Source: Candidatus Kuenenia stuttgartensis
Lineage (GTDB): Bacteria > Planctomycetota > Planctomycetia > Gemmatales > Gemmataceae
Length of the DNA stretch: 64,000 nt
Direction: 5' to 3'
Assembly (NCBI GenBank): GCA_945875585.1
Contig: CAMCLK010000020.1
Span: 1 to 64,000 of the forward strand
The notes beneath the pieces are model-generated. The model was not told the DNA's origin, ran no database searches, and worked only from the letters and a program-made list of their open reading frames with translations. The position numbers were made by a program, and so were the translations under genes. Positions 38,357 to 41,013 of this stretch are shown piece after piece; positions within the stretch are counted from its first letter, which is position 1; every line of letters starts with the position of its first letter.

Positions 38357-39091
38357 TCAGACAAGTGCATGATTGGAAATCACCACATATCGGGCCAAAG
38401 AATGGTTCCAACGCATATTATCTGGCCAACATCCAGACAGTTGACCGGAGTATACGCCCGGAATATCCCAGAACGTTGCCATGACCTCTGGGAAATACTC
38501 CTTGATGGCATTGAGAACATGCCAGGTTATGGGCTGTTCGTCGGTGGTTTGATGTCCATTCCACCAACCGCTGGCCATTCTTGCCCAGCGCACAGCAAAT
38601 CCCCCTTCAAACGGGTCGCTCAAAACCAAGCGCCCATGGGGTTTCAGTACACGGCGCAACTCTCGCATAGCTGTATCGAATGGCAAGTGATGCAGAATGG
38701 CATGGCCCCAAATAGCGTCTATGGAGGCATCAGGAAGCGGAAGGCGCACGGCATCAGCCTGTACCGTGCGAATGGCCACCTGGTGAATCCCTGCACGAAG
38801 CCGTACTTCCCGGCAATATCCAGCCGAAACATCAGTAGCCAAAACCTTTGCGCCACGAGCAGCCAAAAGGCATGCAGCCATTCCGTGGCCACATCCCCAA
38901 TCAAGAACGGTTTTGCTTTCAACATTACCCAGCGATTGGACGGCAAAACGAATCCAAGATGCGTGGTCGAGATACCAAGAATCAGGTCGGGCTAGTTCTT
39001 CGGAGAAACGAGGACAAGATTGACGGTCCGCCGCCTGACGATCGTGAAACAGTCGCTCACGATCCAAGCGGTTCGAAACGTTATCAGGCAC
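38357..39091 (-). CDS. SAM-dependent methyltransferase
   Basis: Class I methyltransferase of 244 residues. Motif I is VLDWGCGHGMAACLLAARG, motif II includes VQADAVRLPLPDASIDAIWG, and the later HAILHHLPFDTAMRELRRVL is typical of the Methyltransf_11 family. GTG 39091 overlaps the stop of the selenoprotein gene by eight bases, so they are translationally coupled. Substrate unknown; the C-terminal part with a Trp-rich segment is not conserved with any family I can name. Confidence 0.87.
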   Translation of the reverse strand: MPDNVSNRLDRERLFHDRQAADRQSCPRFSEELARPDSWYLDHASWIRFAVQSLGNVESKTVLDWGCGHGMAACLLAARGAKVLATDVSAGYCREVRLRAGIHQVAIRTVQADAVRLPLPDASIDAIWGHAILHHLPFDTAMRELRRVLKPHGRLVLSDPFEGGFAVRWARMASGWWNGHQTTDEQPITWHVLNAIKEYFPEVMATFWDIPGVYSGQLSGCWPDNMRWNHSLARYVVISNHALV

Positions 39092-39440
39092 CTAAAACTT
39101 CCTTGTAAGCATCTTCGCTAAAACCAACAACGAGGGTTGATCCTTGCCTGAGCGTGGGAGCCCGCAAATTTCCTGTTGGACCCATTAACAAGGCAGCCAG
39201 CTCGCCGTCAGGTACTTTTTTAGATGCTAGATCCAGAACAGTAACTGACTTGCCTTTAGCAATGATCAACTTACTATTTTCGCGGGCAAGTTTGACCGCT
39301 TCTGTCTCACCCATACGGATTTTGGATGCATCCACAACGAAATCGCCCAGTTCCCAGCCAAGACCGGCTAGAAATGCCTGAGCTTTTTTGCAGGTCATTC
39401 AACCTTTGCGAAAATAGATCCAGTCAAGCTTACTGGCCAT
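39084..39440 (-). CDS. ArsC-family selenoprotein with in-frame UGA (selenocysteine)
   Basis: Thioredoxin-fold ArsC/Spx-like protein of 118 residues if UGA is read through. ATG 39440 follows AGGAG at nine bases. The frame reads MASKLDWIYFRKG, then UGA at 39401-39399, then MTCKKAQAFLAGLG. In relatives the position after RKG is Cys, giving a CxxC redox motif, so here it is UxxC (U14, C17). Without read-through, translation would start at a second ATG directly after the UGA and lose the first strand and the redox residue. A SECIS-like hairpin lies 33 nt downstream. It is encoded after fabF and overlaps the methyltransferase gene. The redox substrate is unknown. Confidence 0.85.
39354..39371 (-). 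promoter_or_regulatory. Bacterial SECIS element candidate
   Basis: On the coding strand the sequence is CUAGCC, apical loop GGUCUU, GGCUGG: a six-base-pair stem with one G-U pair. It begins 27 nt and its loop begins 33 nt after the in-frame UGA. Known bacterial SECIS hairpins have the loop about 16-37 nt from the UGA and an exposed G-U; the E. coli fdhF loop carries GGUC. It would bind SelB and recruit selenocysteyl-tRNA. Confidence 0.78.
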
Positions 39441-39518
39441 GATCAATGACTCCTGAAAGGGGAACCCTGAATACGAAAGACTTCAAAGTCACACAATCAA
39501 TAGGAATCAACACAGCGA

Positions 39519-40751
39519 TTAGTCAACAGCAGCGAAAACAATACAGGCATTATGCCCACCAAATCCGAAGCTGTTTGAAATCACTCTTTTCAAACGGGTA
39601 TCACGCGCATGAAGCGGAACGTAATCCAGATCGCATGCGGGATCAGGAGTCGTCAGATTGATAGTTGGGTGCAATTTTCGATTATGAAGACTCAAGGCGC
39701 AGACAATGGCCTCAATACCACCGCTGGCCCCTAGTGTATGGCCAATGAGGCTTTTAGTACTGCTCACTGGAACTTTGTAAGCATGAGTCCCAAAAACACG
39801 CTTGATAGCAACGGTTTCAGCCTCATCGCCAATAAGTGTACTTGTCCCATGCGCGTTGATATAATCCACGTCCGTGGGGGATATACCTGCGTCAGCCAAA
39901 GCCAACTGCATAGCCATGGCAGCGCCTTCACCATCGCCGCAAGGCGATGTGATGTGATAGGCATCTGCTGTGCAACCAGCTCCAACAATTTCGGCATATA
40001 TTTTAGCGCCACGTTTCTTGGCTCGTTCCCACTCTTCTAAAACAAGAAGCCCGGAGCCTTCCGAAAGAACAAAGCCATCGCGGTTATTATCGAATGGTCT
40101 GCTTGCCAACTGTGGGGCGTCATTTCTTGTAGAAAGAGCCTTAGCGGCAATGAAACCTCCCAACCCCATGGGAGTGATGGTCGATTCGGCACCACCTGCC
40201 AGCATCACATCAGCGTAGCCGTAGCGAATGGCACGCATGGCGTCTGTGAGAGCATGAGCGGCACTCGCACAGGCTGTCGAAACAGCAGTGTTGGGGCCTT
40301 TCATTCCAAACTGAATGGAAACGTTTCCGCTGGCCGCGTTAGGGATCATCTTTGGGATCACAAAAGGGCTGATCCGATCCGGGCCTTTTTCGCGGTATTT
40401 GGAGTGTTGCTCTTCAAATTCACGAAGTCCACCAATTCCGCTGCCGACAATAACGCCGCAGCGGAACGGGTTTTCCTGAGTCATATCTATACCGCTGTCG
40501 TCCATCGCCTCTTTGCCAGCACAAAGTGCCAACAAAACGAAACGATCAACCCGGCGTGCGGTTTTGGGATCCAACCATTCTGGGGCAAGGTCACGAACCT
40601 CGCCACCAAAATGGACCTTAAAAGCCGTGGTGTCGAACTGAGTGAACTGTGCAATACCACTCAATCCGGCCAGGGCTTTTTCCCAGAAGACCGACACTTG
40701 GTTGGCCAGGGGATTGACCGTCCCCAGTCCGGTGATCGCCACACGACGCAT
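39519..40751 (-). CDS. fabF: Beta-ketoacyl-ACP synthase II
   Basis: Chain-elongating condensing enzyme of fatty acid synthesis (410 residues). The catalytic Cys161 is in AVSTACASAAHALTDAM, with His301 in NAHGTSTLIGD and His338 in KSLIGHTLGASGG. The N-terminus VAITGLGTVNPLAN is typical. ATG 40751 is five bases after AAGGA, better than longer in-frame ATGs that overlap acpP. It follows acpP by 16 bases in the rpmF-plsX-fabD-acpP-fabF series. Confidence 0.97.
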   Translation of the reverse strand: MRRVAITGLGTVNPLANQVSVFWEKALAGLSGIAQFTQFDTTAFKVHFGGEVRDLAPEWLDPKTARRVDRFVLLALCAGKEAMDDSGIDMTQENPFRCGVIVGSGIGGLREFEEQHSKYREKGPDRISPFVIPKMIPNAASGNVSIQFGMKGPNTAVSTACASAAHALTDAMRAIRYGYADVMLAGGAESTITPMGLGGFIAAKALSTRNDAPQLASRPFDNNRDGFVLSEGSGLLVLEEWERAKKRGAKIYAEIVGAGCTADAYHITSPCGDGEGAAMAMQLALADAGISPTDVDYINAHGTSTLIGDEAETVAIKRVFGTHAYKVPVSSTKSLIGHTLGASGGIEAIVCALSLHNRKLHPTINLTTPDPACDLDYVPLHARDTRLKRVISNSFGFGGHNACIVFAAVD

Positions 40752-40767
40752 GGACATCCTTCCCGGA

Positions 40768-41013
40768 TCAGGCGTTCTTCGCCTTCTTGATAAATTCGGT
40801 CGCTTCGCCAACAGTTTTAATCTTCTCCGCTTCTTCCTGCGGAATCTGAATATCGAACTCCTCTTCGAGCTCCATAATCAGTTCGACGAGGTCGAGAGAG
40901 TCAGCCCCCAATTCTTCCTGAAATTTCGTGGCGGGCTTGAGTTCAGCCTTATCAACGCCAAGGCTTGAACTTACAACGTCGATCACCTTCCGTGCGATTT
41001 CTTCAGCGTCCAC
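40768..41013 (-). CDS. acpP: Acyl carrier protein
   Basis: Carrier of fatty acyl chains in the cytosol, 81 residues and strongly acidic. The phosphopantetheine attachment Ser39 is in [20 protein letters not shown], the classic DSL signature. It starts at GTG 41013, five bases after GGAGG. It precedes fabF on the same strand. The 201 bases upstream contain no gene, where fabG often lies in other bacteria. Confidence 0.98.

Follow-up and report, generated by a model that had tools for sequence, protein, structure and literature searches.

The curated family NF041106 (NCBIfam 'ArsC family (seleno)protein') appears in a 2026 review as the 'Arsenate reductase-like protein' with a UxxC motif (PMC13188914), and the review attributes it to the Global Ocean Sampling paper of 2008, where it is called 'Arsenate reductase 2', likewise with UxxC (PMC2398784). 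The review also gives limits for bacterial SECIS elements: a loop of 3–9 nt, a stem of 4–16 bp, a G in the first two loop positions, a distance of 16–37 nt between the UGA and the loop, and a minimum free energy (MFE) of ≤−7.5 kcal/mol (PMC13188914). Further away, Spx and the YffB/ArsC-related proteins (PDB 1z3e, 3l78, 1rw1, 2m46) belong to the same superfamily as the protein described here, as judged by profile comparison (E ∼1e-10 to 1e-8).

The gene studied here lies in a stretch of 64,000 nt, which was analysed as a whole and is referred to as the window. It is a new member of the already curated and published selenoprotein family and shares with it the curated model, the motif and the Sec column; both Sec and Cys forms of the family exist. 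Only in its SECIS does it differ from these relatives: the hairpin that is usual in its order is gone, and the loop of another hairpin lies 11 nt further downstream. Weighing the comparisons below, we judge with a probability of roughly 0.88 that the window gene is a functional selenoprotein gene encoding a 118-residue oxidoreductase of the ArsC/Spx fold; most likely, though with less confidence, its SECIS has moved.

The gene and its neighbors

The gene is encoded on the minus strand, together with the two genes flanking it:

39519..40811, minus strand: beta-ketoacyl-ACP synthase (FabF-like), the upstream gene (Pfam ketoacyl-synt, 199.8 bits)
39450..39454, minus strand: ribosome-binding site AGGAG, 9 nt before the ATG (from the sequence)
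39084..39440, minus strand: ArsC-family (seleno)protein gene, 118 aa with predicted Sec14 (UMTC), stop UGA-UAA (NF041106 and Pfam ArsC matches; homologues at 32–53% identity)
39399..39401, minus strand: in-frame UGA, predicted Sec codon of residue 14 (TGA in this column in 134 of 169 homologues, TGC/TGT in 33)
38357..39091, minus strand: class I SAM-dependent methyltransferase, the downstream gene (Pfam Methyltransf_11, 77.9 bits)

From the ATG at 39440–39438 the frame runs for 13 codons to the TGA at 39401–39399 and then stays open for another 104 codons until the stop TGA at 39086–39084, directly behind which a TAA follows. An earlier reading made from the sequence alone (the sequence-only reading) had reported this start, its AGGAG, the UGA and the length of the open stretch, all with correct coordinates. 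Taken alone, 104 open codons would arise by chance with p ∼0.01. A gene arising by chance is excluded because the product matches NF041106 and the TGA is found at the same site in most homologues. The same reading had warned that an ORF caller would cut the gene, and indeed the only product in the table-11 ORF list at this place is a 104-aa ORF starting at ATG 39398, which is devoid of the Sec position.

The methyltransferase starts with a GTG inside the end of the seleno-gene, so that the two overlap by 8 nt. It formed no shared-neighbor cluster in the other genomes compared, and when it was used as query no close match was obtained in the sister-genus genomes G447 and G448. The FabF-like gene is located upstream in 8 of the compared genomes, including that of the window itself, and is the sole shared neighbor among the clusters listed. 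No conserved gene-neighborhood partner was found among the compared genomes. We also considered an arsenic operon and rejected it, as the upstream neighbor is a gene of fatty-acid synthesis and the methyltransferase does not come near the cut-offs for arsenite methyltransferases.

Family and fold of the predicted protein

When the UGA is translated as Sec, the match of the protein to NF041106 reaches 117.6 bits, over a cut-off of 85. Pfam ArsC is matched at 28 bits (cut-off 24) with the UGA read as a residue; this match points to the fold family only and does not imply arsenate reduction. The motif U14-M-T-C17 corresponds to the N-terminal U/C-x-x-C of NF041106, and among 36 aligned members both C/U14 and C17 are invariant. 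Y9 and R11, which precede the UGA, are nearly invariant in the family, and all 20 of the 20 columns conserved in ≥85% of the family are kept in the window protein.

Assignment to the ArsC family, as in the sequence-only reading, is borne out by these scores. We rejected the Spx regulator as an identity for the protein, with 21.1 bits against a curated cut-off of 123; the Spx, YffB-type and glutaredoxin models all score far under their own cut-offs. A profile search of solved structures returned Spx, SACOL0876, YffB and ArsC-related proteins with E values from 7e-11 to 4e-6. An AlphaFold2 model (mean pLDDT 90) predicts a thioredoxin-like fold, in which residues 7–10 form the first strand and residue 14 is placed just ahead of helix 1 (15–26). 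The top Foldseek matches to this model were again YffB, Spx and ArsC-related proteins, with TM scores of only ∼0.5, and these fold matches are ∼15–24% identical to the window protein. The redox CxxC of Spx occupies the place of the UxxC in the window protein. Where Spx has LRRP, the window protein has NLRAP, and binding of RNA polymerase by the window protein is unsupported.

These features suggest how the protein may work. Decoding of UGA codon 14 as Sec by SelB and tRNA-Sec would create a U-x-x-C redox center where helix 1 of the thioredoxin-like fold begins. In catalysis, Sec14 would be the residue attacking the substrate, and Cys17 would resolve the resulting bond. Such decoding would need a SECIS hairpin just downstream of the UGA.

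The alignment also bears on a scenario where the UGA simply ends a 13-residue leader and translation restarts at the adjacent ATG 39398, yielding the 104-aa protein devoid of Sec. The ATG does lie directly behind the TGA, and the 104-aa ORF is what a table-11 ORF caller reports. However, the relatives do not conserve this ATG as a start codon, as the residue after Sec varies among them (T, M, V, I, S, N, K and others). The restarted product would furthermore be deprived of its first strand and its attacking residue, though Y9 and R11 are nearly invariant. We therefore regard a restart as very unlikely.

Selenocysteine machinery and a second candidate selenoprotein

The sequence-only reading predicted that selA, selB, selC and selD would be present outside the window, and all four were found there in the genome. 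The tRNA-Sec gene (selC) is located at C37:474-567 and scores 68.6 bits, which is over the cut-off; ARAGORN assigns it the anticodon TCA. selB (380.2 bits) and selA (491.9 bits) are adjacent at C21:56586-59875, and selD is found at C63:866-1795 (291.5 bits). The selD product carries a fused pyridine nucleotide-disulphide oxidoreductase domain at its N-terminus (Pfam PF07992; locus L105:17-1906 on the same contig of the window's genome, G000:C63), in an ORF that reaches near the start of the contig.

A screen of the same genome that covered Redoxin-type proteins revealed one more in-frame TGA, in a TlpA-like/AhpC-TSA-like gene (L211, G000:C70:12761-13453, minus strand). Its product, which carries the motif WALWUPFC, is a probable second selenoprotein of the genome. 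Among its relatives, TGA is found at the Sec site in genome G461 and Cys in G460 and G459. No NCBIfam model scored above cut-off for the TlpA-like protein, and ordinary annotation may split the gene. Inspection by eye showed that a hairpin with a GGU loop can form 29 nt after the UGA, with the loop GGUU here and GGUC in the G461 relative; the minimum-energy fold of the 60-nt stretch in the window's genome differs from this hairpin.

Codon state and distribution of the homologues

Alignment of the homologues placed either UGA or Cys at exactly the column of codon 14. The sequence-only reading had expected relatives to carry the first Cys of a CxxC here. This holds for a minority (33/169), while most of them have UGA themselves (134/169). 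The 169 homologues are the 171 rows read minus two duplicate records, with L191, whose TGA had been missed by the pattern, counted as TGA. This L191 (genome G461) has the UGA but another residue in place of the resolving Cys (UTTV for UxxC), although it ranks with the closest relatives of the window gene.

In a sample of 392 planctomycete genomes, 80 contained a match over the cut-off, and the members retrieved comprised 72 with TGA, 10 with Cys and one with Asp. The Asp form (L060, genome G045) shares its genome with a UGA copy, L074. In this sample selB was present in 70/72 genomes with the TGA form as compared to 2/10 with the Cys form (Fisher p 5e-8). In the order to which the window belongs, 89 of 102 genomes match the family. 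There the contrast is absent: selB is found in 55/63 genomes with the TGA form and 20/23 with the Cys form. Thus, most Cys-form genomes of the order keep selB, and at this level the codon state is not tied to selB.

A sequencing or assembly error could in principle have converted a TGC or TGT of an ordinary Cys form to TGA, and Cys forms do occur in 23 genomes of the same order. Such an error is highly improbable, given that most family members, among them the closest relatives of the window gene, carry TGA as well and that a whole Sec system is present in the genome.

The usual SECIS of the order

There are no insertions in the region, so the DNA following the Sec codon could be compared codon by codon, with the U numbered 0. 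In 63 of the 64 TGA rows of the order an NGUU loop is found at positions 25–28, flanked by a stem. After removal of duplicates and addition of L191, this NGUU hairpin is seen 22 nt after the UGA in all 62 other genomes of the order that have the UGA form. Standard pairs fill 90% of the pair cells in 55 distinct TGA sequences; the 23 Cys sequences reach 43%, and slid controls do not exceed 68%. Generic folding z-scores did not separate Sec and Cys forms (means −1.1 and −1.0); only the position-specific comparison does.

Pair 20–34 varies in the 55 distinct TGA sequences, being U-A in 29, C-G in 16 and G-C in 7. At the sequence level, this variation is compensatory change, which lends covariation support to the predicted NGUU SECIS. 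Of the two bases, position 20 ends an Ala codon, and position 34 is the middle base of a codon for Glu, Gly or Ala. The third base of the Ala codon (U, C or G) thereby covaries with the identity of the residue (Glu, Gly or Ala) five codons downstream, as seen in loci L106–L191. This Ala base tracks a downstream residue because both lie in the SECIS stem, where RNA structure and protein sequence are under mutual constraint.

The Leu codon at positions 30–32 is CTT in 51/55 TGA forms, while CTT is not among the three commonest codons in the Cys forms. The NGUU element is mostly missing from Cys homologues. Outside the order the same element is found in 38 of 71 TGA forms and is absent from the other 33 (e.g. 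L050, L078 and L097), which presumably use other hairpins.

The hairpins of the window gene

The window gene is the sole Sec form of its order that is devoid of the NGUU element. Three hairpin features were defined downstream of its UGA:

39365..39383, minus strand: site of the usual SECIS of the order, degenerate, with loop CAUU and the outer three pairs broken (local fold)
39351..39374, minus strand: proposed relocated SECIS hairpin, UUUCUAGCC-GGUCUU-GGCUGGGAA, with its loop at 39365-39360 (within the bacterial SECIS limits of PMC13188914)
39345..39383, minus strand: longer hairpin consisting of this core and an outer 6-bp stem, GCUCAG (39383-39378)/CUGGGC (39350-39345) (MFE)

At the usual site the window gene reads GCUCAGGCAUUUCUAGCCG, where 3/7 pairs are broken. 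The local MFE is −3.6 kcal/mol, as compared to ∼−10.6 kcal/mol in the relatives.

The second hairpin, with the loop GGUCUU and the stem CUAGCC/GGCUGG, had been pointed out by the sequence-only reading and is present as described, with its loop 33 nt after the UGA; the stem extends to 9–10 bp. The 24-nt core has an MFE of −11.5 kcal/mol. The 5′ arm of the outer stem, GCUCAG, is the 5′ arm of the old SECIS. For the 42 nt starting at 39383 the MFE is −21.1 kcal/mol, which is lower than in 99.2% of 3000 synonymous recodings. A hairpin as good by rule occurs at ∼1.1% of random window positions and in 6.7% of synonymous recodings, whereas one as stable is seen in 0.8% of recodings. The hairpin falls within every one of the published limits: a loop of 6 nt with G first, 9 bp, a distance of 33 nt, and −11.5 (core) or −21.1 (extended) kcal/mol (PMC13188914). 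Thus, the proposal that it serves as SECIS agrees with the rules, while the relatives in the order use the NGUU hairpin in its place. In favor of this hairpin, the TlpA-like gene of the same genome may form one with a similar GGU loop, as noted above. The new hairpin occurs in one genome only and has no covariation support. An Rfam scan of the window gave no match; as bacterial SECIS elements are short and variable, this carries no weight against a SECIS.

The SECIS of E. coli fdhF has the apical loop GGUCU, which is positioned nearer to the UGA than 33 nt. The window hairpin has this GGUCU in common with fdhF, and its own distance of 33 nt is within the range of 16–37 nt given above.

We suggest that the ancestral NGUU hairpin (22 nt) decayed in this lineage and that the GGUCUU hairpin (33 nt) took over. 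This would amount to a natural SECIS replacement, where a stronger element 11 nt downstream substitutes for the old one and the Sec codon is kept. We consider such a takeover fairly probable, at a lower level of confidence than the assignment of the gene itself.

Selection on the reading frame

After the UGA, divergence at the three codon positions is 0.38/0.33/0.71 between the window gene and L168, and 0.39/0.33/0.67 between the relatives L168 and L190. As divergence by codon position is like that between relatives, the frame has evolved under purifying selection across the UGA along most of the branch. This branch is long, with 0.58 substitutions per site, and the gene was not found in two other genomes of the genus, both ∼81% complete and both with selB. 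The long branch and the absence from these two incomplete genomes make a recent loss of function possible but less likely.

In its full form, that explanation holds that the ancestral SECIS is broken, that the UGA now acts as a stop, that the gene is starting to decay and that the GGUCUU hairpin is fortuitous. It would account for the broken SECIS, which is unique among the Sec forms of the order, for the long branch, and for the two sister genomes that have kept selB but not the gene. However, these are just ∼81% complete. Moreover, the 104 codons after the UGA are intact, all family-conserved residues are kept and the codon-position constraint is as in the relatives, while the replacement hairpin conforms to all SECIS rules and surpasses nearly all synonymous recodings in stability. 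We thus consider incipient decay unlikely, albeit the least unlikely of the three alternatives discussed here, and retain the reading of a functional selenoprotein gene with a moved SECIS.

Implications

A selenoprotein of this family is to be expected in this genome, as the family is matched in 89/102 genomes of the order. The locus is a clear case of a gene being cut at its redox center by a plain ORF caller. The comparison across the order gives an unusually clean view of how a bacterial SECIS is embedded in coding sequence, and the single exception within the order makes the window gene a natural test of SECIS turnover. If the replacement is true, it illustrates how such an element can relocate within a coding region, and it would provide a matched gene pair for the tolerance of SelB to spacing and loop.
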